A stretch of 64,000 bases of DNA from Stutzerimonas stutzeri (GTDB lineage Bacteria > Pseudomonadota > Gammaproteobacteria > Pseudomonadales > Pseudomonadaceae), in NCBI RefSeq assembly GCF_019090095.1, contig NZ_JAGQFP010000001.1, positions 1,798,001 to 1,862,000 of the forward strand, read 5' to 3'. Under the pieces are notes generated by a model. The model ran no database searches. It was given only the letters and a program-made list of their open reading frames with translations, and had not been told where the DNA came from. The position numbers were made by a program, and so were the translations under genes. This document shows positions 43,061 to 61,714 of the stretch, one piece after another; the first letter of the stretch is position 1, and every line of letters begins with the position of its first letter.

Positions 43061-44548
43061 TTAAAGCATACCGCCCTGCCACTCCGCTTCGCGATTAGCC
43101 AAGGCCTGAGCGATGGCATCGACATCGTGGGACTCCAGCGCATCCGGCAGCGGATCCGAGCCTACGCTGGCGAACACCTGGCCATAGGCATTGCGTAGAT
43201 CGGCATACGCCAGATCGCGGCGCAAGTTCGCTTGCAACAAATTCAATTCGCCCTGAATCAATTCCAGCTCGCCGATCCCTTGAGCTTTGTGGCGATTGCG
43301 TAGCTGCTCGGCTATCTGCTGATCCAGTGCCGCCAGTTGCTGGCTCGTGGTGAATTCACGCTGAGCCTCCTGGAAGTTTGCATTGGCCACATAAAGCTGC
43401 GCCAGGATAGCCATCGACATCGCCTGTCGGCGCATCGTCACCACGTCCTCGCTGGCCTTGGCCACGTCGATAGCAGCGGGCGCCGAGAGCACATTGAACA
43501 GGTTCCAGGTAACTTTCACACCGTAATCGGCCCAGCTCTGATTAACCAGAAACGAGTTGCTGTCATAGTGCCCACCCAGCGAGAACTCCAGGCCAGGCAA
43601 CATGCGCAGCATCGCCTTGCGCGTTTCTGCCGCACCAATGCGCGCCTGGTAGTCCTGCTCACGCAGCTCAGGCCGGTTGACCAGCGCCTCCTGCTCGAGC
43701 ACCGTCATGTCCGTCGCCAGCTTCGGCATGGGGTAATCGGCGGCGGCTGGCGCTAGCTCGAACTGCGCCCCCATCGGTAGATTGATCAGCGCAGCCAGTT
43801 CCGTCTTGGCCAGAGATAAGGCTCGCCGCTGCTGTTCCAACTGACGAGTCGCTTCGATCAGGGAACGCTGGTAGCCGAGTGACTGGACCGGATCGCCAAT
43901 ACGCTGCTCGCTCATGCGCGCACTGTCCTGCCTGGCTTGATCGACGCGTGCCATTTGCTGGTCGATTTGAGCCAGAAGGCGATCGGCGGCCATGGCGCGC
44001 CAATATGCCGAACGCACGTCCTGGATGATGGTATGCAGCACTTTTCGCCGACGCTCCTGGACGATCAGACGTTGATCGCCCTGCTGTTTGGCACTGACGT
44101 AGCTGACGCCGAAGTCGAGCACGTTCCAGACCATCGTAAGGTCGCCGACCTCACGGTCGCGGTCCTGAGAGGTCGAGGGTTCCAGCGACTGGGTACCGGT
44201 GCGAATACTGCGGCTGCTGGATGCGCTGACGTTGTTGCGCCCGGCATAGCCGGCGTTCAGCGCCATGCGTGGCAGCATGTCGAGACGAGACAAATCGACC
44301 TGGCGTTCAGCCATGGCCTCTTCCATGACTTTCAGGCGCGCTTCCAGGTTGTACTTGACCGCGCGAGCCATAGCCTGGTGCAACGTCAAAGGCGCGGTCA
44401 GTGGTTCCTGCCCACTGAACATGCTGGCCAGATCAGCCTGAGCACGCTGCTCGCTGGCAGCACGCTCGATCGGCTGACTGGTCACAGCGCATCCCCCCAT
44501 GGCCGCAGCAAGCACACACACCGCCAGTACCTTGTATTCTTTTTTCAT
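43061..44548 (-). CDS. TolC-family outer-membrane efflux/secretion lipoprotein
   Basis: A 495-residue outer-membrane factor with a lipoprotein signal peptide (Cys20 after AAMGG). The two tandem OEP repeats are evident. The first is about 55-265, with LTLHQAMARAVKYNLEARL and a long coiled coil. The second is about 265-470, starting EQEALVNRPELREQDYQARIG, with FQEAQREFTTSQQLAALDQQIAEQLRNRHKAQGIGELELIQGE-type helices. It should trimerise into the outer-membrane exit duct for the adaptor and HlyD-type proteins encoded at 57510-61714. It is 47 bases downstream of the giant surface protein gene in the same direction, so the two are probably cotranscribed. Confidence 0.92.
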   Translation of the reverse strand: MKKEYKVLAVCVLAAAMGGCAVTSQPIERAASEQRAQADLASMFSGQEPLTAPLTLHQAMARAVKYNLEARLKVMEEAMAERQVDLSRLDMLPRMALNAGYAGRNNVSASSSRSIRTGTQSLEPSTSQDRDREVGDLTMVWNVLDFGVSYVSAKQQGDQRLIVQERRRKVLHTIIQDVRSAYWRAMAADRLLAQIDQQMARVDQARQDSARMSEQRIGDPVQSLGYQRSLIEATRQLEQQRRALSLAKTELAALINLPMGAQFELAPAAADYPMPKLATDMTVLEQEALVNRPELREQDYQARIGAAETRKAMLRMLPGLEFSLGGHYDSNSFLVNQSWADYGVKVTWNLFNVLSAPAAIDVAKASEDVVTMRRQAMSMAILAQLYVANANFQEAQREFTTSQQLAALDQQIAEQLRNRHKAQGIGELELIQGELNLLQANLRRDLAYADLRNAYGQVFASVGSDPLPDALESHDVDAIAQALANREAEWQGGML

Positions 44549-44595
44549 CCGTGGGCCGCCCCCAATCGCGGCTTGTGTTCTTGTAATCGGTTGAT

Positions 44596-47500
44596 TCAGG
44601 CCGCGGGAACCTTGTCAGCCCATTCGCCAAGGGCCTTGGCCAGTTGATCGATGCGCTGCCGCTCGTTTTCATGCAAGGTTTCGAGTTGCTGCCCCAGACT
44701 TGGAGCTCCCAGAAAGCCTTTCTCCTCTATCTCTACCCCATCTCTGCCAAAGAGGTCCCCCTCCCCTTGCCGAGGGACCAGGTTGCCGAACGCAGATGAC
44801 AATGTGCTGTTACCGAACACGCCGCCATCACCGCCGCCGAACCCCAGGAAGCCGACCCCGGTCCCATCGCCGAACGCCGAGGAACTGAATATCTGGGCCA
44901 GATAGCTAGGCGCCAGCGCCTGGTTCTGCAGAAATATGTTACCGATTGGCGGAATTCCCCCACCCAGACTTGGTGCTTCGAATAACGAAGGCGGTACCAG
45001 CGGCGGCATCAGCGCCGGTGGTGGCGGCACCGAGAGGGGTGGCGGCGACGAAACCGACGGGGTGATGACCGGAGCGGACGGCGTCGCGACGCGGAATTCC
45101 GGGTCGCCCGCATCCAAACCCGCTCTGATCTGTACGCCAGCCGTGCTGGGTATGCCGGCCAGGGCCAAGTTGGCATCGTTGCCGAGCGTATCGCTGAGGC
45201 TGCCGCCGTTGCTTTGAATGGTCGTCGCTACCGCGACGCCGGTCAGGTCGACCTGTCCCGGAGCAACGGTGTAGCTGAAAATCAGGGTATTGCCGCCGGA
45301 GCCCGACACATATTCGGCGAATACTGTCCCGCCGGTATCGAGCGTAATGGCGATACGCGGCGTACCACCGTTGGCATCAACCACCACCGCGTCGTCGAAG
45401 GTAACGGCGAACTCAAGCGTCTGCCCCGCCAGATAGGTCCCATTACTTGGCACCCTGACCGCAGCGACCGCCGGGCCGGTATTATCCGGCGCGTAGGTTT
45501 CCCCGCTGAGGCCGGAGGTCAGGTTGTTGCCCGCCTGATCCGTGATGCCGGTCCCTGAGCTATTCAAGTCGAGCCGCAAGGTGCCGTCTCCGGTAATCGA
45601 CCCGACGGTCACCTCATAGGTCTGCGCATCGATCCGTACGACTGACTGGACGGCCCCCGCGACCGTACCGGTGCCGACCAGCGTAAAGTCGGCCGCGTCG
45701 ACACCGGTCACCGCTTCGTTGAAGTGCAGCGTATAGCGGACGGAGTTGGCGGAGGTTGGCGTCGTATCGACCCGTATCAAACCCGAAGCGATCGGCGCCG
45801 TGGTATCCACCAACACACCGCTGGTTGCGCCTACCGCATTCAAGGTGAGATCGAGACCATTGCCGGCTGCGTCTCGGGTCGTTCCGCCGTTGAGGTCCAG
45901 AGCACTCACGGCGATGCCATCGCCGTCGGTGTCGCCCGCCTGCACGCTGTACTGGAAGACCAACGCGGTGCTGCCGGAGCCGGACACGTACGTCGCGTAA
46001 CGGGTCACGCCGCCGATATCCAATGCCAGTCGCGGAGTACCGCCGCCAGTATCGACCAGCACGGCCTCGCTGGCATTGACGGTGAAGTTCAACACATCGC
46101 CAGCGTTGTAGGCGCCACTGGCCGGAACCGATACCGACGCCACGGTCGGCGTGACCGCATCGACCAACACCCCACTGGTCGAACCGACGCCGTTGAGCGT
46201 AGTGCCGGCCCCGTTGCCTACCGCATCGCGCAGCGTGCCACCGTTGGTATCGAGCGTGCCGCCCACGGATATGCCGTTGCTGTCCAACTGGCCGCTCTGC
46301 ACCGTGTAGCGGAACACCAAGGCGCTGGTGCCCGAACCAGAGACATAACTGGCGTAGACGGTGCCGCCGGTGTCCAGGGTAATGGCCAGACGCGGCGTAC
46401 CGCCGCTGGTATCGACTAAAACCGCCTCACTGTAGTTGATGATGAAGTCCAGGTTCTGCCCGGCTACGTAAGTGCCGTTGGCCGGAACGGATACACTGCC
46501 AACCGACGGCACGTCGCGGTCAACGCTGTAAGCCTCGCCAGCCAAACCGCCGCCGATTGCGTTATCGGCAGTGTCAACGATCCCGGTACCGCTGTTATTG
46601 AGGTCGAGCCCAATGCTGCCGGTACCGCTCACGCCACTGACCAGCACGGCATACGTCCGGCCATCAATCTGTGTAACGGAGGTGATGCTGCCGCCGGCCG
46701 AGCCGCCAAGCACCAAGCTGAAGTCAGAGGCATCCACACCGGAGACATCTTCATCGAAGGTCACTTTGAAATTGAGCGAGCCCGCATTGCTTGGATTGGC
46801 GTCGATGCGCACGATACCGCTGGCCATCGGCGCCGTGGTATCCACCAACACACCGCTGGTTGCGCCTACCGAATTCAAGGTGAGATCGAGGCCATTGCCG
46901 GCTGCGTCGCGGGTCGTTCCGCCGTTGAGGTCAAGAGCACTCACGGCGATGCCATCGCCGTCGGTATCGCCCGCCTGCACGCTGTACTGGAAGACCAGCG
47001 CCGTGCTGCCGGAGCCGGACACGTACGTCGCGTAACGGGTCACGCCGCCGATATCCAATGCCAGTCGCGGAGTACCGCCGCCAGTATTGACCAGCACGGC
47101 CTCGCTGGCATTGACGGTGAAGTTCAACACATCGCCAGCGTTGTAGGCGCCACTGGCCGGAACCGATACCGACGCCACGGTCGGCGTGACCGCATCGACC
47201 AACACCCCACTGGTCGAACCGACGCCGTTGAGCGTAGTGCTAGCCCCATTGCCCACCGCATCGCGCAGCGTGCCACCGTTGGTATCGAGCGTGGTGCCGC
47301 CCACGGATATGCCGTTGCTATCCAGCTGGCCGCTCTGCACCGTGTAGCGGAACACCAAGGCGCTGGTGCCCGAACCGGAGACATAACTGGCGTAGACGGT
47401 GCCGCCGGTGTCCAGGGTAATAGCCAGACGCGGCGTACCGCCGCTGGTATCGACTAAAACCGCCTCACTGTAGTTGATGATGAAGTCCAGGTTCTGCCCG

Positions 47501-50500
47501 GCTACGTAAGTGCCGTTGGCAGGTACACTGACGGAGCCGGCGGTAGGTGCTACGCCGTCGACGATAATATCGTGCTGACCGGCAATCGAACTGGCCCCGC
47601 CAGTGACTGGCAAGGTCAAGACCGCATCGTCGTTGGTCGCACTGCGGATGGTCGCGCCGTTCAGCGACAGCGCGCCAGTCGATTGATAGTCGAGGTCGGC
47701 GGTCAAGTCCTCGGCCTGCACGGTATAGCTGAAGCTCAGCGTGTTGCTGCCGGAACCGGAAACATAGGTCGCCTGACGATCAGTAGCGCCGGTCTCCAGC
47801 AAGAGCGTCGGCGAGCCACCGGCGGTAATCACCGTAACCGCCTGGTCGAAGGTCATGGTCACGGTGATGACATCACCGATTTTGTAGCCACCATCTGGGT
47901 TGCTGACGTTCACCGAGGTGACGACCGGGTTCAGGCTGTTCACGCTGATCGCGATGGTGTCGGTATCCGTCTGGTTACCACCCGAGCCGGACAACCCTAG
48001 ATCATTAGTCGCTATCTGCAGTGAAGCCGGGCCGTTGTATCCGCCAGTGGGGCTGAAGACCATGCCATTCAACGCCAGGTTGATGTCGGCCACGCTCCCT
48101 TCGAAGGTCATAACGCTATTGGCAGTACCACTGCCCGTGATGAAACTCAGCCCGGCAGTACCCGACAGGGTGATCAGGCCATTGCTAGCGGTGAGCATCA
48201 CCCGAACGATGCCACCACCGACGTCCACATCGCTGATGGATACCTGGTTGCCATTACCGCTGGAGAAGACCAATAGGCTGTCTTGGTCCGTCGATTGGGC
48301 TGCGGGAATACTGTTGACCGGTGAATCGTTCACCGCGGTGACCGTCAGCGTGACCGTGGTGGAATCGCTCTGGGCCCCGCCGCTGCCAGCATTGCCACCG
48401 TCGTTGATGCCCACCGTGAGTACTACGTTGCTGGTGGCGTTGAGTGCGGTCTGGAAGCTCACCCCGCTGGCAGCAATGAACGCATTGATATCGGCGACGG
48501 TACCCGTCAGGGTCAGGCTGCCCGAGCCCGATCCCGCCACCGTCACACCCGATCCGCTGCTGGCCGATAGGGTACCGGAAGCCACCGAGAAGGTCCCAAC
48601 GACAATGCTGCTGCCGGCATCGACGTCAGCGAAGCTGATGCCGGTGAGGGCAGCGCTGACATCTTCCGCCACACCGATGGAAACCGGCGCAGTAATGACC
48701 GGCGCATCGTTGACCGCCGCGACCTGCAACGTGACGGTGTCGCTGTCGGTCTGGGCTCCGCCGCTGCCCGTGTTGCCGCCATCGTCGATTGCCACGGTCA
48801 GGATCACGTTGGCCGTAGCATTGGCCTCCGTGGTGAAGGCCAGGTTGTTACCCGCGATGAAGGCATTGATGTTGGCAACCGTGCCGGTCAAGGTCAGCGC
48901 GCTGCTGGTGCCACCGACAGTCACACCGCCGCCGCTGGTTGCGCTGAGCGTACCGCTGGCCACCGAGAAAGTGGCGGTGACGGTGCCACCGCCAGCATCG
49001 GTATCGCTGAAGCTGATGCCGGTCAACGCGCTGGCCGCATCCTCGGTCACGAGGATATTCGCCGGCACGCTGGCCACAGGTGCGTCGTTGACTGCGATAA
49101 CGCTGACCTGCTTGGTCGCCGTATTGCTGCTATCGCTGCCGTCATTGACCGTGAAGCTGATGGTGCGGTTGGCGGTGCCGGGCGTATCCGAGCTGTTGCT
49201 GTAGGTGACGCTGCGCAACGCGGCCTGCCATTGAGCAAGCATGGCAGTGCCGCCAGCCGACGTCAGGGTCAGCACGCCGGTGCCAGCGTTATAGCTGGCG
49301 CTGATGTTGCCCATGGTGCTGCCGTCGTTGACGAAGGCGAGCACATCTTGGCCGCTGGCGAAGCTGCCCGTGATGGCCACGGTGGCACTGGCTGACGTGG
49401 TGTTGTCCACATCGCTTAGCGTCAGGCCGCTGTCGATCACCGTGGCGCTGCCATCTTCCGTGAACGCGCTGGTACCGCCGGACGTTGTGACCACGGGTGC
49501 ATCGTTCACGGCGGTAACGGTTACCGAGATGGTGCCGTCGGCCGGGCCGGTGTTGGCGGCATCGCGGATGCGCGTGGTGATGATGAAGTTCTGGTCGTTG
49601 TTGGCCGAAGGGGCCAGCGCCACGGCGGCCAGCGCCGCGTTCACATCGGCCACCGAGCCGGTGACTGTCCATACGCCCGTGCCGGCGTTGTAGGTGGAGG
49701 TGGCCGAACCGAAGGTGCCGGTGGACAACGAGCCCGCTGCGGGATCGGACAGCGTGAGCGTGGCGGTGATGGTGTCGCCGGTGTCCACGTCGGTCACCAC
49801 GATATCGTCCAGCGCTACCACACTGCCGCCTTCGGTCGCGGCCTTGCTCTGGGTGAGATTGGTGGCGGTCGGCGCGTCGTTCACCGGCGTGACATCCAGC
49901 GTGATGGTGCCATCGGCCGGGCCGGTATTGGCAGCGTCGCGAATGCGCGTGGCGATGGCGACATCCTGATCCCAGTTCGCCACCGGCGTGAAAGCAACGG
50001 CTGCCAGCGCCGCGTTCACGTCGGCCACCGAGCCGGTGACCGACCACACGCCAGTGCCGGCGTTGTAGGAGGAGATGGCCGAGCCGAAGGTGCCGGTGGT
50101 CAAGGAGCCGGCCGATGTATTGTTTAGTGTCAGCGTCGCGGTAATGGTGTCGCCCCCATCGGCATCGCTAACCACGATATCGCCGATCGCCACGCTGCCA
50201 CCGGGATCCTCGGTATAGGTAACGGTCTGGTTCAGGTTGGTAGCCGTGGGGGGGGAGTTCGGGATGTAGTTGGTATCGGTAGTACCACCGGCCGTGGTGA
50301 GAATGGTGGAAATCGCCGTCCCTGCGGATCCGTTCATGCCTCCGGAAACGGCAGCAGCACCGCCAGCACCGCCAGCACCAACGTTACCGGACAAGCTGGA
50401 GACCGTTGAGCTATCCAGCTGCACCGTACCGCCGGCGTTCCAGATGGCGCCGACACCCGCACCACCATTGCCGCCATTACCGGTGCGCCCATAACCAGCC

Positions 50501-52134
50501 TGATAGCTGGATACCCCGCCGCCACCGCCACCGCCCGCCCCAAGGTTGTTGGTGATAGTGGAACTGGTAATCGTCAGGAGACCGGTGCTGGTGTTGTAGA
50601 TACCGCCCGTAGCTGCCGCTCCCCTGCCACCAGCCGCCGAGGCTCCCATACCACCACCGCCGCCGCCGATACTGGTGCTGCCATTGCTGGCGGTGCCACC
50701 CGCGCCACCCGCCGTGTAACCGGCGGTGTTACCTCCTCCGCTATAACTGCCGCCACTACCGCCACTGGCGTTCCCGCCTCTACCACCCGCAAAACTCGAC
50801 CCACCCGCACCGCTACCACCGGTAATACCCGAGGGTGCTGTGGCTCCAAAGGCGGTTCCTGGGCTGCCACCGCCCGTACCGCCCGCGGTAGAGCCAAAAC
50901 CACCGCCACCACCGCCGCCGCCAGCATAGTTACCGCCAACGTCACCACCACCGCCGCCACCACCCGAGGCCTTGTTGCCGATGATCGTGCTATTGCTGAT
51001 GGTCAGCACACCGCTGTTGTAGATGCCTGCACCCAAGCTATCAACGGCGTTTGCGGTTTCATTAGCACCGTTGCCGATGATCAATCCATTGGAAATCGTC
51101 AGGTTATCAATGGCCACAGCAGAGCCAGCGCCCGAGGTAGCGACACTCAGCACGCGCGCCAGATTGTTGCCGCTCAGGGTGAAGCCGCCGCCGACGATGC
51201 TCATGGTATGGCCGTCGGTAACGTTGATCGACAGGGTGTCAGCCGCTGAAGCGAAGGTGATATTGCCGGTGAGGGTGATCAGGTCATCAATGCCATCGGT
51301 GTTGCCCGTGGCGATCGCTGCCTTGAGCCCGGCGACGCTGTTAACGCTGGTAGTCACCAGTACGTGATCGTAGCTGTCGAGCTGGGAAAGGTTCAGCGCA
51401 TAACTGGCCGCTACGTCACCGGTGGTGATTTCCAAGTCCCAATCTGCGCCTTTGGCGCTACCACCAGTTCCGTCATCGGACGCAGCGATATCGGCCCCCG
51501 TCATGCTGGCCAGCTGCGATAAAAAAGCCTGCCCTTCGCTGCCCGCACCCACTTCGCAACCGTAGAGCAGGATGTCGCCATCCGTGGTCAGGGCCTCGCC
51601 GATGCTCTGCAGTTGGCTGCTGTAATCGCCGAGATTGCCTTCGAACAGTGGCGCGTTACCCAACAACAGCACCCCGGCGTCGCCGTGGGAAATGATATGG
51701 ATGGCGTCGATACCGCTACGGCCTGCCAGGGCATCGGCGATCTGCTGCACCCCATTCTGATCCGTGCTCAGCAACACCACTTCGGCATCCGGCGAAACGG
51801 ACTGCAGCAGGGCCTGGTAATCCGGCACACGCGTGTCGACGAAGACGATTTCCTTACGGCCGCCATCCGTATCCGGCACCAGGCCGGCATGAGAGCTGTC
51901 ACTGGCATCCTGGCTCGTTACCGTGCTGGTGGCATCGCCATGACTGTTGTCCGCGGAGTCATCGGCGCTCGGAACATCGCTGGCCACGGTGGCGGCAATG
52001 GCTCCGTCAAACATCATGCGCGGTTCGAGTGCACTCATCAGCGGATGTGGGCGCGACAGCCGATGCGCATTCGACGACTCGGACGACTGAGAGCTCTTAG
52101 GTGCCTCGGCCTGCTTGGATTTACCCCACCACAT
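44596..52134 (-). CDS. Giant surface protein: LEPRxMFD motif, DUF4347 domain, cadherin/Ig-like repeats
   Basis: A 2512-residue protein. Residues 1-35 are Ser-rich and polar, then ALEPRMMFDGA (35-45), an N-terminal targeting motif of very large proteins (LEPR-xLL class). DUF4347 spans about 95-250 and has IHIISHGDAG with H150 and LLYGCEVGAG with C193. A parallel-beta-like region leads to an extreme Gly-rich stretch (390-605). About six cadherin/VCBS-like units follow, each opening near VNDAP, then Ig-like units with the recurring ATYVSGSGSTALVF. A Pro-rich linker and a helical tail (QLETLHENERQRIDQLAKALG) end it. No RTX nonapeptides or cell-wall anchor were seen. It is probably an exported adhesin; the TolC-type gene follows and the sulfotransferase gene precedes it. 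Confidence 0.9.
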   Translation of the reverse strand: MWWGKSKQAEAPKSSQSSESSNAHRLSRPHPLMSALEPRMMFDGAIAATVASDVPSADDSADNSHGDATSTVTSQDASDSSHAGLVPDTDGGRKEIVFVDTRVPDYQALLQSVSPDAEVVLLSTDQNGVQQIADALAGRSGIDAIHIISHGDAGVLLLGNAPLFEGNLGDYSSQLQSIGEALTTDGDILLYGCEVGAGSEGQAFLSQLASMTGADIAASDDGTGGSAKGADWDLEITTGDVAASYALNLSQLDSYDHVLVTTSVNSVAGLKAAIATGNTDGIDDLITLTGNITFASAADTLSINVTDGHTMSIVGGGFTLSGNNLARVLSVATSGAGSAVAIDNLTISNGLIIGNGANETANAVDSLGAGIYNSGVLTISNSTIIGNKASGGGGGGGDVGGNYAGGGGGGGGFGSTAGGTGGGSPGTAFGATAPSGITGGSGAGGSSFAGGRGGNASGGSGGSYSGGGNTAGYTAGGAGGTASNGSTSIGGGGGGMGASAAGGRGAAATGGIYNTSTGLLTITSSTITNNLGAGGGGGGGVSSYQAGYGRTGNGGNGGAGVGAIWNAGGTVQLDSSTVSSLSGNVGAGGAGGAAAVSGGMNGSAGTAISTILTTAGGTTDTNYIPNSPPTATNLNQTVTYTEDPGGSVAIGDIVVSDADGGDTITATLTLNNTSAGSLTTGTFGSAISSYNAGTGVWSVTGSVADVNAALAAVAFTPVANWDQDVAIATRIRDAANTGPADGTITLDVTPVNDAPTATNLTQSKAATEGGSVVALDDIVVTDVDTGDTITATLTLSDPAAGSLSTGTFGSATSTYNAGTGVWTVTGSVADVNAALAAVALAPSANNDQNFIITTRIRDAANTGPADGTISVTVTAVNDAPVVTTSGGTSAFTEDGSATVIDSGLTLSDVDNTTSASATVAITGSFASGQDVLAFVNDGSTMGNISASYNAGTGVLTLTSAGGTAMLAQWQAALRSVTYSNSSDTPGTANRTISFTVNDGSDSSNTATKQVSVIAVNDAPVASVPANILVTEDAASALTGISFSDTDAGGGTVTATFSVASGTLSATSGGGVTVGGTSSALTLTGTVANINAFIAGNNLAFTTEANATANVILTVAIDDGGNTGSGGAQTDSDTVTLQVAAVNDAPVITAPVSIGVAEDVSAALTGISFADVDAGSSIVVGTFSVASGTLSASSGSGVTVAGSGSGSLTLTGTVADINAFIAASGVSFQTALNATSNVVLTVGINDGGNAGSGGAQSDSTTVTLTVTAVNDSPVNSIPAAQSTDQDSLLVFSSGNGNQVSISDVDVGGGIVRVMLTASNGLITLSGTAGLSFITGSGTANSVMTFEGSVADINLALNGMVFSPTGGYNGPASLQIATNDLGLSGSGGNQTDTDTIAISVNSLNPVVTSVNVSNPDGGYKIGDVITVTMTFDQAVTVITAGGSPTLLLETGATDRQATYVSGSGSNTLSFSYTVQAEDLTADLDYQSTGALSLNGATIRSATNDDAVLTLPVTGGASSIAGQHDIIVDGVAPTAGSVSVPANGTYVAGQNLDFIINYSEAVLVDTSGGTPRLAITLDTGGTVYASYVSGSGTSALVFRYTVQSGQLDSNGISVGGTTLDTNGGTLRDAVGNGASTTLNGVGSTSGVLVDAVTPTVASVSVPASGAYNAGDVLNFTVNASEAVLVNTGGGTPRLALDIGGVTRYATYVSGSGSTALVFQYSVQAGDTDGDGIAVSALDLNGGTTRDAAGNGLDLTLNSVGATSGVLVDTTAPMASGIVRIDANPSNAGSLNFKVTFDEDVSGVDASDFSLVLGGSAGGSITSVTQIDGRTYAVLVSGVSGTGSIGLDLNNSGTGIVDTADNAIGGGLAGEAYSVDRDVPSVGSVSVPANGTYVAGQNLDFIINYSEAVLVDTSGGTPRLAITLDTGGTVYASYVSGSGTSALVFRYTVQSGQLDSNGISVGGTLDTNGGTLRDAVGNGAGTTLNGVGSTSGVLVDAVTPTVASVSVPASGAYNAGDVLNFTVNASEAVLVDTGGGTPRLALDIGGVTRYATYVSGSGSTALVFQYSVQAGDTDGDGIAVSALDLNGGTTRDAAGNGLDLTLNAVGATSGVLVDTTAPIASGLIRVDTTPTSANSVRYTLHFNEAVTGVDAADFTLVGTGTVAGAVQSVVRIDAQTYEVTVGSITGDGTLRLDLNSSGTGITDQAGNNLTSGLSGETYAPDNTGPAVAAVRVPSNGTYLAGQTLEFAVTFDDAVVVDANGGTPRIAITLDTGGTVFAEYVSGSGGNTLIFSYTVAPGQVDLTGVAVATTIQSNGGSLSDTLGNDANLALAGIPSTAGVQIRAGLDAGDPEFRVATPSAPVITPSVSSPPPLSVPPPPALMPPLVPPSLFEAPSLGGGIPPIGNIFLQNQALAPSYLAQIFSSSAFGDGTGVGFLGFGGGDGGVFGNSTLSSAFGNLVPRQGEGDLFGRDGVEIEEKGFLGAPSLGQQLETLHENERQRIDQLAKALGEWADKVPAA
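45793..46482. repeat. Direct repeat copy B inside the giant surface-protein gene
   Basis: 690 bases nearly identical to 46828-47520, encoding two Ig-like units. The clearest difference is a missing codon relative to the other copy, plus a few substitutions. It is likely a recent duplication or a product of gene conversion. Confidence 0.9.
46828..47520. repeat. Direct repeat copy A inside the giant surface-protein gene
   Basis: 693 bases nearly identical to 45793-46482; start-to-start period 1035 bases (345 codons), so the frame is kept. The 345-base unit between the copies differs in sequence. Confidence 0.9.
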
Positions 52135-54056: not shown

Positions 54057-54605
54057 ATGGAAGTATTTATCGGCACCATTCAACCCTTCGCCTTCAACTT
54101 CGCACCACGCGGCTGGGCATTGTGTAACGGCCAGACCATGTCGATTGCCCAAAACACCGCGATGTTCTCGCTGCTGGGGACCATCTATGGTGGCAACGGG
54201 CAAACCACCTTCAACCTGCCCGACCTGCAAGGGCGTATGCCCATCGGCATGGGCCAGGGGCCAGGGTTGCCGCTCCATAACATCGGTGAGGCCTCGGGCT
54301 CGCCCTCGACGGTGCTGACCAGCGGTCAGCTACCTACGCACACCCACGCCGTGCAGGTACAAGTGGGCGGCGCGGCGTCCAATCCCGCTCTCGCCCCCAG
54401 CGCGACCAATCAATTTCTCGGCGCCTCTATCGGCGGTTCCCCGGCGGCTGCAGCCATCTGGTCGGACACCCTATCCTCGCCGGTCACCATGGGTGGCGCA
54501 CAGGCTGGTCTGGCCGGCAACAGCCAGCCGGTGGATATCATGAACCCCTACCTGGCATTGAACTTCAGCATCGCCATTCTGGGAATATTCCCTTCGCGCA
54601 ATTAA
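54057..54605 (+). CDS. Phage-tail-collar-domain protein (MdpB-like)
   Basis: A 182-residue protein made of a phage tail collar domain: WALCNGQTMSIAQNTAMFSLLGTIYGGNG, then TFNLPDLQGRMPIGMGQGPG, a variable middle and LALNFSIAILGIFPSRN. This size and sequence fit the microcystin-dependent-protein (MdpB) group, which is chromosomal and often found without any phage. No tail, capsid or integrase genes are near, so it is not part of a prophage. No classical signal peptide is visible, which agrees with export by the neighbouring non-Sec-like apparatus (inference). The RBS CAGGAG precedes the ATG at 54057. Confidence 0.9.
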   Translation: MEVFIGTIQPFAFNFAPRGWALCNGQTMSIAQNTAMFSLLGTIYGGNGQTTFNLPDLQGRMPIGMGQGPGLPLHNIGEASGSPSTVLTSGQLPTHTHAVQVQVGGAASNPALAPSATNQFLGASIGGSPAAAAIWSDTLSSPVTMGGAQAGLAGNSQPVDIMNPYLALNFSIAILGIFPSRN

Positions 54606-54836: not shown

Positions 54837-55157
54837 ATGCTGAACCTCATCAGCGCGGAGCATTTTCTCCAACTGCAAGGCCAGGTCTGCGAGTTCGCCG
54901 CGGATACGGGTGAAACACTGTTGCTCCGGGTAGACTCGGTCAATCTGAAGCCCAACGCCCGCATGCCCAGTGCCTCGGCGGAAACGCGCGTGCCGTTCTC
55001 GGTCGGGCTGACTGCCATGCAGCCAACCGGATTCATGGACGGCAGCTGCACGGTAGAGCTGCCGCAACTGGGCCGAGTCTCGCAGTTGATGGTGTTGCGC
55101 GAAGCGGCGCTGGATCGTGACCCCACGCAGCACTATTTCCAGATTCTGTTCAACTGA
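54837..55157 (+). CDS. Small beta-rich protein of the DUF6916 type
   Basis: A 106-residue protein from the ATG at 54837 (AAGGA ribosome binding site 7-11 bases upstream). It reads MLNLISAEHFLQLQGQVCEF, then RVPFSVGLTAMQPTG, GSCTVELPQLGRVSQLMVL and the ending HYFQILFN. This resembles the DUF6916 family that accompanies collar-domain genes (memory, moderate certainty). It looks like a compact beta protein of about 12 kDa without signal peptide. It is convergent with the GNAT gene, overlapping 8 bases. Function unknown. Confidence 0.75.
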   Translation: MLNLISAEHFLQLQGQVCEFAADTGETLLLRVDSVNLKPNARMPSASAETRVPFSVGLTAMQPTGFMDGSCTVELPQLGRVSQLMVLREAALDRDPTQHYFQILFN

Positions 55158-55653
55158 GCGCAACCGAGGGATACCAGACCAGGCGGTCGGCCACCGGCTG
55201 GGTCTCCTCGACCCGGAAGCCCAACTCCAGATATAGCCGCCTGGCCTCCACATTGTTGCGCCACACCACGACCGCAACCGGGCTGGCGACTTGTTGCGCC
55301 GCGCGCTGTACGCCCCGCAGGACGATCTTCCCGTAACCCCGCCCGCGCACGGCGGGAATCAGCGCGAGGTAGATCAGGCGCACCTCGTTATGACCGAAAT
55401 CGACCGTTACCGCGCCAATCGTCGAGCCGGCTTTTTCGATAACCAAATGCATGGCATTGGGGTAATGGGCGCCCATTCCCGCTTGCTGCACCTGATATTG
55501 GTTGGCGACCACGGTATCAATCAGTTCGGCTTCGCCATCGATCCATTGCAAATCCGCCCGGCTCGATTGATACAGGCGTTGTAGAAAAGGCTCATCGCTC
55601 GGCCTGGCCGGACGCATACCGATACCGTCCGCCAGGGATGAAAGATCGCTCAT
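55150..55653 (-). CDS. GNAT family N-acetyltransferase
   Basis: A 167-residue protein from the ATG at 55653. It carries the GNAT acetyl-CoA fold: MRPARPSDEPFLQRLYQSSR at the start, motif A VRLIYLALIPAVRGRGYGKIVLRGV with the Q/RxxGxG/A loop, and motif B NNVEARRLYLELGFRVEE. The likely substrate is a protein N terminus or amine in the same locus; this cannot be read from sequence. It is last in the leftward operon that begins at 61714 and follows the second sulfotransferase-like gene by 22 bases. Confidence 0.9.
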   Translation of the reverse strand: MSDLSSLADGIGMRPARPSDEPFLQRLYQSSRADLQWIDGEAELIDTVVANQYQVQQAGMGAHYPNAMHLVIEKAGSTIGAVTVDFGHNEVRLIYLALIPAVRGRGYGKIVLRGVQRAAQQVASPVAVVVWRNNVEARRLYLELGFRVEETQPVADRLVWYPSVALS

Positions 55654-55675: not shown

Positions 55676-56668
55676 TTAACCCAGCTGCCGCAGACGCAGC
55701 GCCTCGAGGTCCTGATAGGGCTCCGCAGCCCAGCGACTGACCGCCTCACGCAACGACGCACAAGCGCCGTCACGCTTACCCTGGCCATCCGCGACAAAGA
55801 CCTGCTCCGGCCGTTTGGCGTTTTGCCCACTGCTCGCCAGGGCCGCGGCGACCTGAGCGGCATCGAGTCCGAACAGCGTGCGCAACCTGCCGTCCAGCGC
55901 CATTGGCAGCTCGTTGTAATTGAGTAGCAGACCGCCATATTGACGATGCAGATCGACAGCGGTTTGCAGGAGCCGACCGAGGCGACGAGCAATGAAGGCC
56001 TCGCGCGGCGTCGATGGTTCGCCCGCCAGGTTCAGCGGCGACTCGCCAATCAAGCCAGGCACCATATGCATGCCCGGCTGTTGCCAATGCGAGGCCGCGA
56101 TTTCCAGCGGGTCGCGGTAGAGGAACAACCAGGGCGTATCGGGAAAGCAGCGACGGAGCAGCGGCAGCTCATAAAGATTCCAGGCATCCAGCTTGACCAC
56201 CAGGTGTGACGCTCGAGCATTACGACGCTGGCCCAGCGCCGAGAGCATGGCGCGAACAGCCGCGTGCTGCTCAGCACCCTGCAGCTCGCTGCGGTAATGC
56301 GCGCGCAGCAACTGATCCAGCGGCGGCGGTTCGGACAGCACGATGTGTGTATCGAGCCGCGCCAGCATCTGCGCCAGCAGGGTCGAGCCACAGCGCGACG
56401 CGTGAAAGACGAACGCAGTGGGCATCAGACCCGGGCTCGCCGCCTGCCAGTCGAGAAGCGCCGCCAATGGCGTATCGCGACGAAACGCCTGATTGAACGG
56501 CAATCGCAGCGCCAGATCCACCTCATCGCGATAGAACGGCTGGGTCAATTGCTGCTCGCCAAACCAGCACCAGTCGACACGCCATTCGCCGTCGCCTGGC
56601 CAGGCCCTGATCGGCAACCAGCCGTGCATCTCGTCGACCGCCTGCGGAGCAACCGTCAGGCTCGCCAT
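55676..56668 (-). CDS. Second sulfotransferase-like P-loop protein
   Basis: A 330-residue protein from the ATG at 56668. Residues 1-80 are a beta-rich N-terminal extension. The PAPS-type P-loop FVFHASRCGSTLLAQML begins near 86, and FPDTPWLFLYRDPLEIAASHWQQ gives the Arg/Ser 3'-phosphate site. It ends with a helical segment (CASLREAVSRWAAEPYQDLEALR). It differs clearly from the sulfotransferase at 52195. It overlaps the upstream hydroxylase gene by 13 bases, so both are coupled. Sulfotransferase chemistry is probable but unproven; a P-loop kinase-like role is the alternative. Confidence 0.82.
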   Translation of the reverse strand: MASLTVAPQAVDEMHGWLPIRAWPGDGEWRVDWCWFGEQQLTQPFYRDEVDLALRLPFNQAFRRDTPLAALLDWQAASPGLMPTAFVFHASRCGSTLLAQMLARLDTHIVLSEPPPLDQLLRAHYRSELQGAEQHAAVRAMLSALGQRRNARASHLVVKLDAWNLYELPLLRRCFPDTPWLFLYRDPLEIAASHWQQPGMHMVPGLIGESPLNLAGEPSTPREAFIARRLGRLLQTAVDLHRQYGGLLLNYNELPMALDGRLRTLFGLDAAQVAAALASSGQNAKRPEQVFVADGQGKRDGACASLREAVSRWAAEPYQDLEALRLRQLG

Positions 56669-57456
56669 AACGCAGCCCACTCGCTCCTGCCCTGACGCAT
56701 CGCCGCACGAACGTCAGCCGCAGAAAACTCCAACCCCAACTCCGCCCCCAGCTTAAGTGTCGCCTCGATGAATTCCCCCTTGTCGGTCAGGGTACGCAGG
56801 CGCTGCGCCAGATCGGCATCGCGCGCGATGATTCGGCGCAAGCGTGCGAATGCCTGCATCGCCGCACTGGGTTGCAGCACGGGTGTGGTTGCCTGGCCCT
56901 CGACGATTGCTCGCAACAGCCATGCCTGCGGCAAACAGTCGAGCACCAGGTGAACGCGTGGCGAGTCGCTGGGGTTGGTCACACGATGCGGGCGGGACAG
57001 ATCGAGAAACCAGCACTCACCTGGCCGCATCGGTACCTGCAGGCCGTCGAGCAGAAACTCGACCCCCGTTGGGCTGAGCAGCGGGATATGCAGACGAAGA
57101 TCGCTGCCGGGCAGGCCCAGATCGTGGTCACAATGTTCCTGGATCGCCGACCCCGGCCCCAGGCGTAGCAGGCGCGCGCTGCGCAGCGAAGCTTGAAAGT
57201 GGCCGAGCACCTCGTGCCAAGCGGGCTCATCCCGCCACCAGGCACTGCGACGTGGGGCGCCACGCCCAGGCGCGAGCGGCAGGGGCGCATCCTCGGGGCT
57301 GATCAACGCCACTCCGCTCCAGTCGCCCTGATAGTAGGTGCTGTTGAAATGCGCTTGCCAGGCATCAACCGGTATCCGCTGCAACGCTTCGAGCAGCGGC
57401 GGCATCTCGCAGCGAAGGGACAAGCGCGAACAGAGCGGTAGCGGGCTGTCAGCCAT
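56656..57456 (-). CDS. Aspartyl/asparaginyl beta-hydroxylase-like protein with Nif11-like C terminus
   Basis: A 266-residue protein from the ATG at 57456. Residues about 40-180 form a cupin-type Asp/Asn beta-hydroxylase domain: LRLGPGSAIQEHCDHD supplies His108 and Asp110, LRLHIPLL the co-substrate strand, PHRVTNPS the second iron His157, and RVHLVLD Arg167 for 2-oxoglutarate. Residues about 200-256 (AFARLRRIIARDADLAQRL, then FIEATLKLGAELGLEFSAAD) look like the Nif11 leader-peptide fold of RiPP precursors. That similarity is by eye. The enzyme would hydroxylate an Asp or Asn of a protein partner. It sits between the M50 protease gene and the sulfotransferase-like gene. Confidence 0.85.
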   Translation of the reverse strand: MADSPLPLCSRLSLRCEMPPLLEALQRIPVDAWQAHFNSTYYQGDWSGVALISPEDAPLPLAPGRGAPRRSAWWRDEPAWHEVLGHFQASLRSARLLRLGPGSAIQEHCDHDLGLPGSDLRLHIPLLSPTGVEFLLDGLQVPMRPGECWFLDLSRPHRVTNPSDSPRVHLVLDCLPQAWLLRAIVEGQATTPVLQPSAAMQAFARLRRIIARDADLAQRLRTLTDKGEFIEATLKLGAELGLEFSAADVRAAMRQGRSEWAALWRA

Positions 57457-57509: not shown

Positions 57510-59609
57510 CTAGAACCCACTTTCCCTCACCCCCAGCGCCGCCATCCGACGCCAAATGGCGCCCAGGATGGATTCTCCCCTCCCCTCCAGCACCACCACG
57601 CCCAACAGCGATTGCCGTGGCGCCGCCCGCTCGTTCCGCGGCACCAGGCGTACGCCATATTGCGCCTGCTGCGGCTCGGGCCGTTGCTGGGCATCGCGGC
57701 GCACCGCAATGGGACCGCCCTGATCCGAAGCCAGGGCTGGCTGATCCAGATAAGCGGAGCCGGTCACATCCACCTCGGTCAAACGCACCGGCACGCCAGG
57801 TAACCAGGGATCGGCACTGGCGATGAACCGCCCCTGCGCGCCTGCCTCGATGCGCCATAGCGACTCCTCGGCCAAGTAGCCGCGCAAGCGCGTTCGCTCC
57901 TCGACCACCCGCACCAGCGTTTGCTGCGGCGACAACCAGCGACCCGCCGCCAAGTCCGCCGGCAGGTCTCGCACCACGCCGTCGTGCGAGGCGCGCAGCT
58001 GCAAACGCTCACGCTGCGCAGCCAAGCCACGGTATTCGGCCACCGCTTCGGCCAGATGCTGCTCGAGGATGGCGCTGTCTGCCACCGTCTCGCTACGCCC
58101 CGCCTGACGCCGTAACTGCAATTGCAGAATGTCGATCTCGCTGCGCACGATCTGCTGACGCGAATCGAGATCCGGCGACTCCAGCTCCAGCAGCAGGTCG
58201 CCACTGCGCACCGTCTGGCCGTCGTGTACATGGAGCTGCTTCAGCCGCGCAGGGAGCGGCGCGTGCAGCGCGCTGACCCGGCTCGCCTCGAGCATCGCAG
58301 GGATTTCCACGGTGCTCCGCCAGGGCACCAGCAACACCACCAGCACGCCCAGCAGTGCAGCTCCGACGAGCAGCGCGCGTGCCGGTTGCGCCTGCGCGCG
58401 TCGCCGCCACCACTCCTGCAGCTCGCGCCAGATCGGCAGGCCGATGAACCAGGTCAGCTCTACCAGCATGAGGAACACGCCCAATAGTTTGAAGAACATG
58501 TGGTACACGGCCAGGGCGATACCCAGGAACAAAGCCGCCCGCCATAACCAGGCGCCATAGCCCCAAATCAGTAGCTTGCGCCGCAGCGCGGGCGGCCAGG
58601 ATTCCGGCGCCGGCTCGCCGTAGCCGAAAAAGGCTTCGCGCAGCCGCCAGCGGCACAGGGCGAACGCACGTGCCTGCAAGTTCTCCACATCCCAGAGATC
58701 GCTGAGCAGGAAATAGCCATCGAAACGCATAAAAGGGTTGAGGTTGACCGCCACCGTGGTGATCCAGGTGGCGCTGGCGAGCATGAACACAGCGCTACGC
58801 AGCGCTCCGTCCGGCAACAATGACCAGGCCAGCAACGCGACACAGGCCAACAGCAGCTCGGCCAGCACACCGCCGGCACCGATGAGCAACCGGGAACGGC
58901 GATCGTTGACCCGCCAGGCATCGCTGACATCGGTGTAGAACAGCGGGAACATCACCATGAACGCCAGGCCCATGCTCTGCACGCGACATCCGGCGCGCTT
59001 GGCCATATAGGCATGGCCGAACTCGTGGCAGAGTTTGGCGAACACCAGCGCTACGCCGAAGGCCAGCGCGCCGCCCAGGCTGAACAGATGCGGAAAGGTG
59101 GCGATGAACCGCTGCCAGTCGCGCGCAACCAGGAACACCCCGAAGGCCAGCAACACGGGAAGACCATAGCGCAACAGACCTGGGCCGTAACGCCTGAGCC
59201 AGGGCCAGGTCCGGTCGAGAAAGGCATCCGGTCGCCACAGCGGAATACGAAAGAACAGGTATTGGTGCAGCAGGCTTTTCCAGAAGCCCTGACGCTGCGA
59301 CGCCGCCTTCGACGCAAAGCTGCCGCGCTGCTCGGCATCCTGAGCGACGATCAGGTCATGGCCACGCAGGAAGCGCAGCATTTCCTCCAAGTCCGACGCG
59401 TCCAGGGGTTCGCCAGCATCGAGGTTGGCGGCACGCAATACTTGCCCGGCGTCGCCCAGCGTCCAATGGCGCAACAGCCGCATCGCACTAGCGCCCAGTT
59501 TGAAGTAACGCCCGCGCAGCGGGTCGGCCAAGGTCCATTGCGGCGCACCGTCGCGCGCCGGAGCGGCCGTGGACAATTGCAGATCGGGACGCAACGCCGG
59601 TAACTGCAT
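57510..59609 (-). CDS. M50 site-2 protease fused to HlyD-type arm, with PqqD-like N terminus
   Basis: A 699-residue inner-membrane protein. Residues 25-90 look like a PqqD/RRE-type winged helix (WTLADPLRGRYFKLG). Several transmembrane helices from about 145 hold the zinc motif HEFGH (195-199) and the second site NLNPFMRFDGYF (289-300, Asp297), a complete site-2 protease pair. A final membrane helix (about 425-443) leads to a periplasmic arm with a lipoyl-like VSALHAPLPARLKQLHVHDG, a coiled coil (about 495-560) and a beta-barrel part. Such M50-HlyD fusions occur in export operons lacking an ABC ATPase. It abuts the upstream HlyD gene without spacer. Confidence 0.9.
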   Translation of the reverse strand: MQLPALRPDLQLSTAAPARDGAPQWTLADPLRGRYFKLGASAMRLLRHWTLGDAGQVLRAANLDAGEPLDASDLEEMLRFLRGHDLIVAQDAEQRGSFASKAASQRQGFWKSLLHQYLFFRIPLWRPDAFLDRTWPWLRRYGPGLLRYGLPVLLAFGVFLVARDWQRFIATFPHLFSLGGALAFGVALVFAKLCHEFGHAYMAKRAGCRVQSMGLAFMVMFPLFYTDVSDAWRVNDRRSRLLIGAGGVLAELLLACVALLAWSLLPDGALRSAVFMLASATWITTVAVNLNPFMRFDGYFLLSDLWDVENLQARAFALCRWRLREAFFGYGEPAPESWPPALRRKLLIWGYGAWLWRAALFLGIALAVYHMFFKLLGVFLMLVELTWFIGLPIWRELQEWWRRRAQAQPARALLVGAALLGVLVVLLVPWRSTVEIPAMLEASRVSALHAPLPARLKQLHVHDGQTVRSGDLLLELESPDLDSRQQIVRSEIDILQLQLRRQAGRSETVADSAILEQHLAEAVAEYRGLAAQRERLQLRASHDGVVRDLPADLAAGRWLSPQQTLVRVVEERTRLRGYLAEESLWRIEAGAQGRFIASADPWLPGVPVRLTEVDVTGSAYLDQPALASDQGGPIAVRRDAQQRPEPQQAQYGVRLVPRNERAAPRQSLLGVVVLEGRGESILGAIWRRMAALGVRESGF

Positions 59610-60929
59610 CTACAGCCCCACTGTCTGGCGCAACGCCGCCAATGGTCGGCGCAGCAGATAGAGGGCCAACGGGCCCCGCTCTCCATACAACTTCGCCGTG
59701 CCGCGCAGGCCAATGCGCGGTGGCGCCCGCTCGAATTCGGCGTCCAGACGATAGGCCAGGTGGCCGCCGGCTACGGCCTGCGGCTCATAGGCCAGGCGCT
59801 GCAGCCGGGCGCTATGCCGGTGCAGGGGATCGCTGTCGAGAAACAAGGCAACCTCACCGCCCGGCTCGAAGGCCAGCACATCCGCCACGGCCAGATCGAT
59901 ACGAAGCTCGGCCTGCTTTGGATCGGCCACCACCATCAGCCGTTCGCCGGTCTGCACCGGCAAACCGGTCCAACGCTGGGCATCGGCGAATACCGCGATG
60001 CCGTCGCGCTCGGCCTTGACCTCGGTGCGTGCCAGCAGCTCGCGGGCATAGTCGCGCTCGGCGCGTTTCTGCGCCACGCGGGCGGTGAACAGATCGATGC
60101 GCGCCCCCGACTCGGCGTCGCTGAATGCCCGCTGCGCATTGGCACGCAACTCTGCCTCGGCAACCTGCAAGCTGCGCTCGGCGACGTCCGCCTGCGCCTT
60201 GATGCTGGTGGCATCGAAACGCACCAGTACGTCGCCCTGCTTCACCGCCTGATTGGGTTTGACCAGAAACTCGGCGATCACGCCATCGAGCGGCGCGGCG
60301 ACCACCTGACCGTCGAGGGGCACCACTTCGGCCGGCGCCAGTACGGACTGGCGCACCGGTAGCAGCAACAGCGCCAGAACCGCCGCCACCGCCATCGCGA
60401 CCTTGCGCCGCGGCCAGCGCAGCCGCCAGGGCTTGCGTGGTTGCAGCGATTGCCAGGCATGGCTGTAACAATCGCCGAGCTGCACCAGCAGCGCCTGTTC
60501 CGCGCCGCTCCAGGGCCGCTCGCGGGCAATCCACAAGCCGCCGTAGGGCTTTTGCTGATGGTCGACCAGGGGCAACCAGAACACCGCCTCCGCCGACAGG
60601 CTTCGCCAGTCGGACTGAACCTGCGCATTCAACGTGTCGGCGGTTACCACTTGCGGTTTGTCCAGGCGCCCCTGGGCGAGCAACTGGCCGGTGGCGTTCT
60701 CGACAAAGGCGACGAAGGGCGCATGAGGCTCGACCACGCTGACCGCCGTCAGCGCCCGTACTCGCCCGGCGATCAGCAATGCCGCATGGCGGTAGCCGAA
60801 CAACGCTTGGGCGTCGTTGACCAGGGCGTAGGCCAGGCCATCGATATCACGCGCCGCACGGGCCTGCCGCTCAAGGCTGAGAAATTCGGCGAATAGCCGC
60901 TCGGTCGGGTGTTGCTGAGCAGCCGTCAT
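59610..60929 (-). CDS. HlyD-family membrane fusion protein with cytosolic GAF-like domain
   Basis: A 439-residue protein. Residues about 30-160 are a cytosolic GAF-like domain (AYALVNDAQALFGYRHAALLIAG, then WLPLVDHQQKPYGGLWIARERPW). A single transmembrane helix is at 176-192. The periplasmic HlyD part contains a biotinyl-lipoyl half-motif VVAAPLDGVIAEFLVKPNQAVKQGDVLVRFDA (205-236), a coiled coil and its partner half DGIAVFADAQRW. The domain order is unusual, because most HlyD proteins have only a short cytosolic tail. It would link a cytosolic signal or cargo to the periplasmic channel (inference). It overlaps the upstream adaptor gene by 4 bases. Confidence 0.88.
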   Translation of the reverse strand: MTAAQQHPTERLFAEFLSLERQARAARDIDGLAYALVNDAQALFGYRHAALLIAGRVRALTAVSVVEPHAPFVAFVENATGQLLAQGRLDKPQVVTADTLNAQVQSDWRSLSAEAVFWLPLVDHQQKPYGGLWIARERPWSGAEQALLVQLGDCYSHAWQSLQPRKPWRLRWPRRKVAMAVAAVLALLLLPVRQSVLAPAEVVPLDGQVVAAPLDGVIAEFLVKPNQAVKQGDVLVRFDATSIKAQADVAERSLQVAEAELRANAQRAFSDAESGARIDLFTARVAQKRAERDYARELLARTEVKAERDGIAVFADAQRWTGLPVQTGERLMVVADPKQAELRIDLAVADVLAFEPGGEVALFLDSDPLHRHSARLQRLAYEPQAVAGGHLAYRLDAEFERAPPRIGLRGTAKLYGERGPLALYLLRRPLAALRQTVGL

Positions 60930-61714
60930 GGCGCCCCCTCGAACTGCGCGCTACCGCTCATTCCCGCCAACAGACCGCTGGCATCCGCAGGCAACGCCGC
61001 GATCAGCAGCAATGTCTGGCTGCCCTCATCGATGCGTGCCCCCAGGCGCTTGACCTCGGCCTGCAACGGCTTCCCGGTCTCATCCGGGACGAAGATGAAA
61101 CGCTGCCCGGGTTTGAGCGTGGCCAGCCAGCGCGACGGCACCAGCAGATGGATTTCCAGCGTGCGGTTATCCACGACTTCCAACATCGGCGTCCCGCTGG
61201 CCACGCTTTCGTGGGGCTGCACGCGACGCTGCACCACCTGGCCGTCGAACGGCGCCGCGACGCTGCAACGCTTGACCTGGACGCGATAGACCTGCGCCTC
61301 GGCCTCGGCCTGTGCTCGGCGTGCCTCGGCCAGACTGACCTCGAAGCGACCGACCGAATTCAGCGCTGCCAGTTGCTTCTTGTGCGCCAGCTCCTCGCTC
61401 GCCGCCCGCGCCGCGGCCTGCATGGCGTTGAGCTGCGCCTGGTAGGCGCTACAGTCGAAACGCACCAGCACGTCACCTTTGTGAAATGGCTGCCCCTCGG
61501 CAAAGGGCATCTCGATGATCCGCCCCGCCAGTTCACTGGCCAACACCGCCTGATCGCGCGCGCGCAGCACTCCGCGTGCCTGGCGTTCAGCCGCGATCGC
61601 GGGCGCATCGATATCTGTCGACAGCAACGGCTCTTCGGCCCGCAATGACGTAGCGCAGGCCAGCACGACCAGCGTCAGTAGGGAACGGCGAAAACGCACT
61701 GACTTGCGCCGCAT
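60926..61714 (-). CDS. Periplasmic adaptor protein (RND/HlyD type)
   Basis: A 262-residue protein from the ATG at 61714. The signal peptide (SLLTLVVLACATSLRAEE) is followed by a lipoyl-type half-motif GVLRARDQAVLASELAGRIIEM, then a short coiled coil (YQAQLNAMQAAARAASEELAHKK) and the second half RCSVAAPFDGQVVQRRVQPHESV. A beta-barrel domain ends it. It is shorter than usual RND adaptors and lacks a membrane helix beyond the signal. It probably bridges the HlyD-type inner-membrane proteins to the TolC-type duct. It is the first gene of the six-gene leftward operon, with no pump gene such as an RND transporter alongside. Confidence 0.9.
   Translation of the reverse strand: MRRKSVRFRRSLLTLVVLACATSLRAEEPLLSTDIDAPAIAAERQARGVLRARDQAVLASELAGRIIEMPFAEGQPFHKGDVLVRFDCSAYQAQLNAMQAAARAASEELAHKKQLAALNSVGRFEVSLAEARRAQAEAEAQVYRVQVKRCSVAAPFDGQVVQRRVQPHESVASGTPMLEVVDNRTLEIHLLVPSRWLATLKPGQRFIFVPDETGKPLQAEVKRLGARIDEGSQTLLLIAALPADASGLLAGMSGSAQFEGAP

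Follow-up and report, generated by a model that had tools for sequence, protein, structure and literature searches.

A protease-adaptor fusion travels with giant LEPR proteins in a candidate export module of Stutzerimonas and other Pseudomonadota

How might an enormous protein reach the surface of a Gram-negative cell when the genes beside it encode a channel and adaptors and no recognisable pump? The question is raised by a 64,000-nt stretch of the Stutzerimonas stutzeri genome (hereafter the window) and by a module at 43061..61714 within it (Table 1). The module encodes a TolC-type lipoprotein, a giant protein with an N-terminal LEPR motif and three proteins with HlyD domains, one of which is an M50 metalloprotease fused to a HlyD-type adaptor (M50-HlyD). 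Searches with Pfam and NCBIfam found no ATP-binding cassette (ABC) pump, resistance-nodulation-division (RND) pump or repeats-in-toxin (RTX) domain among the module proteins, and no RTX were reported in the giant itself. The initial annotation had read this locus as a conduit around a membrane protease in which modification enzymes took part. The genes it listed were all found where it had placed them, with most of its domain calls backed by Pfam or NCBIfam. We consider it probable that LEPR giants have a dedicated exporter, spanning two membranes and encoded by five core genes, with M50-HlyD in the place of an ABC transporter; export, leader recognition, cleavage, the motor and surface display are what we infer here from sequence.

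Gene linkage was observed directly in a named set of Pseudomonas-group loci, the best 80 of 551 named relatives. M50-HlyD was present in 80/80 loci and the other two adaptors each in 79/80, the single miss being a locus that begins at the end of a contig. In 74/80 there was a giant bearing the N-terminal motif. Among the six loci without one, three stop shortly past the M50 gene (L089, L101, L130) and two leave the stretch after inserted genes (L075, L077); the sixth is considered below. Where the giant frame terminates inside the stretch (23 loci), TolC was detected in 19. Of the four misses, three have giant frames finishing no more than about 100 bases before the end of the stretch, and in the other one the frame is split. 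TolC was also present in 39/42 modules of branch A, the branch to which the window belongs.

The accessory genes were variable. The collar protein was found in 69/80 loci, the GNAT acetyltransferase in 71/80 (a few loci missing either being incomplete), DUF6916 in 52/80 and sulfotransferase 1 in 56/80. A PMT-type glycosyltransferase was found in 32/80, sulfotransferase 2 and the hydroxylase each in 13/80, and the adenosine 5′-phosphosulfate (APS) kinase in 5/80. GNAT accompanied the collar gene in all 69 collar loci, sulfotransferase 2 and the hydroxylase occupied the identical 13 loci, and four giant-bearing loci contained none of the eight accessory genes. Therefore, the machine consists of five core genes (TolC-like lipoprotein, HlyD, second HlyD-type adaptor, M50-HlyD and LEPR giant) and the remainder are cassettes. 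The cluster is not a chance assembly, because the core keeps the same company in loci of many families. The initial annotation was supported in its conduit half and too broad on modification; a place within the core machine for the sulfotransferases, hydroxylase, acetyltransferase and APS kinase was rejected, as these are optional in the 80 loci, and the collar protein is likewise optional. In many of its loci the PMT-type glycosyltransferase precedes sulfotransferase 1 (e.g. L078:14553-16151), a position hinting at glycosylation of the giant.

The evidence that ties the giant to the machine is its N-terminal motif. A DNA pattern for LE[P/A/Q, few others]Rxx[FL]D[GA], blind to the M50 gene, was searched against 56 genomes of the genus and gave 17 sites in 15 genomes, against two sites for a control pattern. 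Full-length M50-HlyD was found with an M50 profile at 15 loci in 13 of the 56 genomes. In all 13 carriers the motif and the gene lay no more than 16 kb apart and were equal in copy number, with two sites where there were two modules. The 43 genomes without M50-HlyD had no motif apart from two sites, in G031 and G060; with no M50 gene found near them, both were treated as chance hits. A closer inspection revealed that the G031 site falls at about residue 280 in a frame of 591 aa matching kinases and phosphatases (NCBIfam). The G060 site, identical in its DNA letters, occupies a similar place in a 584-aa frame and was likened to that of G031, annotation having been made for the G031 frame.

The same association emerged from 299 evenly sampled Pseudomonadota genomes, of which 72, from 41/180 genera, contained M50-HlyD at E 1e-30. 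LEPR hits of the DNA pattern occurred in 36/72 genomes with M50-HlyD and 0/227 without, LE[PAQ]R hits in 40/72 and 6/227, and all pattern hits in 43/72 and 14/227. The NCBIfam family LEPR-XLL, which covers 24 positions and served as an independent check, was over its cut-off in 58/72 genomes with the protease gene against 11/227 without. When only frames of at least 1000 codons were counted, the figures were 49/72 and 1/227. Fisher tests on the pattern and profile counts exaggerate independence, the sampled genomes being related. Moreover, a somewhat broader motif opened 39/86 frames of at least 1000 aa and 1/1114 frames of 300-999 aa (53 stretches, 50 with M50-HlyD, shadow frames included). 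A motif-opened frame of at least 1000 aa was present in 36/42 branch A modules. Of the six modules lacking one, L046 and L054 start inside a contig-cut frame, L052 lies near a contig start and, at L223/L224, the frame with the motif is split; L048 and L259 are considered below. Against LEPR-XLL the window's giant scored 14.1 bits in one search and 16.3 bits in the genome search, below the cut-off of 17. Giants of G002, G129, G133 and G200 exceeded it, two of them only with neighbours in frame, and the giants of branch B, a divergent group whose M50-HlyD genes score lower (about 290-330 bits), reached up to 37 bits. The largest frame noted with a LEPR-XLL match has 19,427 codons (G136:C115:112865). 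Since the LEPR motif at the N-terminus follows the protease gene from genome to genome, it is likely to be an export tag of the giants, and LEPR-XLL would thereby be linked to an export module.

Could a conventional pump encoded elsewhere drive the export? A type I secretion system (T1SS) comprises an ABC transporter with type I specificity, a HlyD-type adaptor, a TolC-type channel and a substrate with an uncleaved C-terminal signal or RTX repeats. The module has the HlyD-type adaptor and the TolC-type channel and lacks the type I ABC; nor is there an RND inner-membrane pump gene among its proteins, as an RND efflux pump would have. A conventional T1SS whose ABC gene lies at a distance gains something from the HlyD and TolC families being common to both systems, and from an LssB-type type I ABC being over cut-off in 17/56 genus genomes, including 6/13 M50-HlyD carriers. 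A C-terminal element, [LIVFMA]..QL, is also found in 27/34 complete giants against 113/694 control frames. In addition, PMC10868602 names LEPR-XLL in a giant of Vibrio that has RTX/serralysin domains at its C-terminus, and a classical T1SS would fit such a protein. However, no LssB-type ABC was over cut-off in 7/13 carriers, the window's genome included. ABC_membrane exporters were listed for all seven and named individually for the window's genome, where NCBIfam identified five: MsbA, a cyclic-peptide exporter and three MsbA-like proteins that reached none of the cut-offs shown. None is near the cut-offs for LssB (693 bits), HlyB (726) or PrtD (510). Two modules are thus present in the window's genome, where these searches reveal no type I ABC, and a classical T1SS with an unlinked ABC was dropped as very unlikely there; as an account of the module we hold it to be highly improbable. 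The conduit supposed by the initial annotation, with HlyD-type arms and TolC around a membrane protease and no ABC protein, agrees with both the co-occurrence and the ABC survey, as does its dedication to the giant. The second module of this genome (G000:C1:1454292-1456385) has TolC, the second adaptor and a giant that starts LEQRFVFDGA and lacks DUF4347.

The M50-HlyD protein itself appears to be an intact protease. Its M50 domain scored 31.3 bits in Pfam (cut-off 27.2), and the HExxH and second zinc-site motifs were invariant in 36 sequences. The best NCBIfam match of the M50 part was daptide_HExxH (NF041824, 5e-44, below the curated cut-off), a family that processes ribosomally synthesised and post-translationally modified peptides (RiPPs). 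Structure searches with M50-HlyD gave match lists dominated by the adaptor domain, so that the N-terminal and membrane folds were barely probed. RND_mfp and MacA-like folds were among the matches of the module adaptors. These folds and the RiPP-processing relatives are what a tripartite efflux pump or peptide-processing unit would offer, the giant being then merely a neighbour by descent. The motif tracks the M50 gene over 299 genomes and over giants of differing make-up, and no pump subunit is encoded; we find this alternative most improbable.

The N-terminal domain of M50-HlyD, of about 90 residues, has a bbbaaa order in the model. In a search of 25 genomes, Pfam PqqD (PF05402) was over cut-off on the M50-HlyD N-terminus in 4/8 branch B genomes (G210, G228, G294, G306), and it also matched a 749-aa frame of G082 that adjoins another SecA-like gene. 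For branch A a relation of this N-terminus to PqqD is only suggestive. A PqqD-like domain together with an M50 site recalls RiPP leader handling, and the protease might on this account free a short signal peptide from the N-terminus of the giant, export being a side issue. Three HlyD arms and a TolC channel would then be left unexplained, and we give this idea almost no credence.

What, then, might power the transport? In branch B a SecA-like ATPase directly adjoins the M50 gene in 7/8 loci, compared with 0/42 in branch A. Six of these proteins have the SecA DEAD, cross-linking and P-loop domains (Pfam), with TGEGK and GRGTDI motifs in the alignment. They share these domains and motifs with known accessory SecA ATPases and differ in being about 670 aa long, with no SecA_SW domain reported, and in standing beside M50-HlyD. 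Of five branch B genomes searched, four had an extra SecA-like gene (G082, G210, G306, G322) and one had none (G238). Branch B-type giants span 2,850 to 15,251 codons and lie about 1.3 to 15.6 kb from the M50 gene, as measured at 13 lower-scoring loci picked for a LEPR-XLL match on the same contig. In the genus of the window a single SecA, the housekeeping one, was found in all 26 genomes tested (13 with the module and 13 without), and a second SecA as the motor of the window's branch was rejected on this count.

These observations also bear on a two-step route, in which the housekeeping Sec system moves the giant across the inner membrane and M50-HlyD removes the leader and hands the chain to HlyD and TolC, amounting to maturation and an outer-membrane step. 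The sole SecA in 26 genomes, the SecA-like ATPase of branch B and the known leader removal by M50 enzymes (PMC10885120) all favour it. Against this, the N-termini of 39 giants carry no obvious Sec signal, their most hydrophobic 11-residue stretches having Kyte-Doolittle values of 0.76 to 2.08, and the HlyD fusion puts the protease at the conduit's base. We regard the two-step route as unlikely, and continue with the dedicated exporter.

Behind the motif of many giants stands DUF4347. Its structural model has a predicted local distance difference test (pLDDT) score of 94 and matches Tce1, CHAT and caspase. A PDB sequence search with DUF4347 placed designed proteins in its top rows over a short stretch, leaving Tce1 as the sole useful row. 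A His-Gly pair and a Cys are invariant in 38 alignment rows, which leave out two plasmid rows (with the same invariant columns) and two divergent copies, and are present in 107/109 copies overall. The divergent copies are the first copy of L235, without the Cys, and L227/L228, without His-Gly. By prediction, DUF4347 has a caspase-like (clan CD) fold with a His/Cys dyad. It was present in 74/74 motif-bearing giants of the named set, 26/39 giants of a wider set and 9/13 carriers of the genus, and its use as a universal cargo mark was rejected on the last two counts. Tce1, a Pseudomonas aeruginosa type VI secretion system (T6SS) effector by its PDB title (9qpe), shares the DUF4347 link, whereas here the domain stands behind the motif of giants. 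In PMC8262886, DUF4347 refers to the T6SS protein PA0256, and PMC12322963 places a DUF4347 protein among those raised in stationary phase in Burkholderia thailandensis.

The proposed sequence of events is as follows. The giant would be made with no obvious Sec-type signal peptide and with an N-terminal leader, LE[PQAS]Rxx[FL]D[GA]. This leader may be bound by the N-terminal domain of M50-HlyD, which resembles PqqD or a RiPP recognition element (RRE), and may be cut in the membrane by the M50 zinc protease site. The chain would then move to the cell surface via a conduit of the three HlyD-type adaptors and TolC. The likely motor in branch B is the SecA-like ATPase, and in branch A the housekeeping SecA/SecYEG would be the simplest candidate. 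In the many giants that have it, the caspase-like DUF4347 may make a second cut or govern release. Both cutting and export have been proposed for one M50 protein, EpeP (PMC10885120).

Several observations weigh against a dedicated exporter. Branch A modules encode no energy source, and TolC was found nearby in 0/8 fetched branch B loci. M50 proteins are proteases and are not known to act as protein channels. By the strict DNA pattern 36/72 M50-HlyD genomes have no LEPR match and 14/72 have no LEPR-XLL match over cut-off; conversely, LEPR-XLL is over cut-off in 11/227 genomes without M50-HlyD, in 10 of these in short frames. No giant was seen beside the M50 gene at L048 and L259 of branch A, and L105 (Pseudomonas nitroreducens TX1), the sixth giant-less locus of the named set, has the three adaptor/protease genes and no giant within 10 kb. 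DUF4347 is missing from 4/13 genus carriers. PqqD misses the M50-HlyD of 4/8 branch B genomes (G095, G222, G350 and one G082 gene); Pfam gave no PqqD match on nine isolated branch A N-termini, nor on any branch A protein in the 25 genomes, and hhalign related branch A to PqqD at E 3.4e-4, probability 38%. The Vibrio giant described above belongs here also, and export, cleavage and localisation are each argued from sequence.

Comparison with known systems places the module apart from each of them. With the T1SS for giant adhesins (LapA/LapEBC, SiiE) it shares a giant repetitive substrate, a HlyD-type adaptor and a TolC-type channel in one locus. It differs in having no ABC ATPase, three adaptor-type proteins, a motif at the substrate N-terminus and an M50 protein in the inner-membrane position. 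The RaxST/RaxABC analogy drawn by the initial annotation is only a loose one, because RaxB is an ABC transporter and none is present in the module. RiPP leader-processing M50 proteases (the daptide HExxH protease NF041824 and EpeP/YydH) are alike in their M50 match and in leader cutting, with EpeP also a proposed exporter; in the module, by contrast, the protease carries a HlyD fusion, and its partners include TolC and a protein thousands of residues long. LEPR-XLL proteins (NCBIfam NF012209, LEPR-8K) have the same N-terminal motif, the window's giant being under the family cut-off; motifs of LExR type have also been noted in Planctomycetes. It is possible, and we put it forward tentatively, that the module represents a separate protein secretion class, in which a RiPP-style leader-binding domain, an intramembrane protease and a HlyD arm replace the ABC transporter, the giants run from about 1,000 to more than 15,000 residues and one branch has its own SecA-like motor.

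Table 1. Genes and sequence features of the module, in window coordinates.
Feature	Status	Position	Strand	Evidence or remark
TolC-type outer-membrane channel, lipoprotein signal	core	43061..44548	-	Pfam OEP 1.4e-40; N-terminus MKKEYKVLAVCVLAAAMGGCAV
Giant surface protein, 2512 aa, presumed cargo	core	44596..52134	-	DUF4347, cadherin-like, sub-threshold tandem-95 repeats
DUF4347 domain of giant, predicted caspase-like fold, conserved His-Gly and Cys		51310..51867	-	DUF4347 1.1e-58
LEPRMMFDGA motif, presumed export leader of giant, residues 36-45		52000..52029	-	co-occurs with M50-HlyD gene
Sulfotransferase 1	optional	52195..53031	-	Sulfotransfer_3 2e-17
APS kinase	optional	53189..53842	+	4.3e-50
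Collar-domain protein, no obvious signal peptide	optional	54057..54605	+	Collar 1.5e-28
DUF6916-like protein	optional	54837..55157 (likely start 54837 by comparison)	+	27.3 bits, cut-off 27
GNAT acetyltransferase	optional	55150..55653 (likely start 55653)	-	6.2e-9
Sulfotransferase-like protein 2	optional	55676..56668	-	25.8 bits, below cut-off 27
Asp/Asn beta-hydroxylase-like protein	optional	56656..57456 (likely start 57456)	-	1e-14
M50 intramembrane metalloprotease fused to HlyD-type adaptor, N-terminal bbbaaa domain resembling PqqD	core	57510..59609	-	
HEFGH zinc-binding motif of M50 domain		59013..59027	-	
Second HlyD-type adaptor, ~170-aa N-terminal domain ('GAF-HlyD')	core	59610..60929	-	HlyD_3 7.2e-14
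Periplasmic adaptor, HlyD/RND-MFP family	core	60926..61714	-	RND_mfp 4.9e-38, over cut-off

Three domain calls of the initial annotation were less secure than the others. The DUF6916-like protein passed its cut-off marginally and the second sulfotransferase fell below it; in the GAF-HlyD protein the HlyD part was recovered, and Pfam detected no GAF domain at E 0.001, leaving that label unconfirmed. Beyond these calls, the present analysis adds the tracking of the protease gene by the LEPR motif, the predicted caspase-like fold of DUF4347, the possible PqqD-like leader-binding domain and the SecA-like branch. Directly ahead of the module, at 40720-41994 (+), lies a gene for a 424-aa protein with curlin-like N/Q-G repeats, a family assigned by eye, and a tandem tRNA-Gln(ttg) gene pair is found at 36734-36932. 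A 12-residue stretch of mean hydropathy of at least 2.2 occurs within the first 60 residues of 1/79 Pseudomonas-group collar frames. The three tandem collar proteins of a Kosakonia plasmid module (L271:17128-19235) have starts that look, by eye, like signal peptides.

The module is not confined to chromosomes. M50-HlyD matches were found by tblastn in 75 plasmid records, 51 of them covering at least 80% of the protein. The Escherichia coli, Citrobacter and Kosakonia plasmid modules examined contain the five core genes, arranged as giant, TolC, HlyD, second adaptor and M50-HlyD, and plasmid giants start LESRQLFDGA or LEPRMLFDGA, followed by DUF4347. The E. coli version was found in 24/5426 genomes, with 21/25 places being plasmid-borne. 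The E. coli (L269) and Citrobacter (L270) modules are flanked by the insertion sequences ISKpn26 and IS1, which suggests recent movement.

No description of the module was found in the open-access literature, preprints and most subscription papers lying outside the search; one hit, PMC8600968, proved unrelated. LEPR-XLL is named without a stated role in PMC10868602 and PMC9611531. Among the largest open frames of the sampled genomes are some with this tag, and no exit route for LEPR-XLL giants is given in the open papers that were searched. Taken together, the module looks like an apparently undescribed Gram-negative route by which enormous proteins would be moved to the surface. If so, it would name the exit route of the LEPR giants and supply a simple marker of cargo, and a membrane protease with a leader-binding domain could occupy the place of an ATP-driven pump. 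Many pseudomonads, and enterobacteria by way of plasmids, would then have a further class of secretion system, and protein secretion would be linked with leader handling of the RiPP type.

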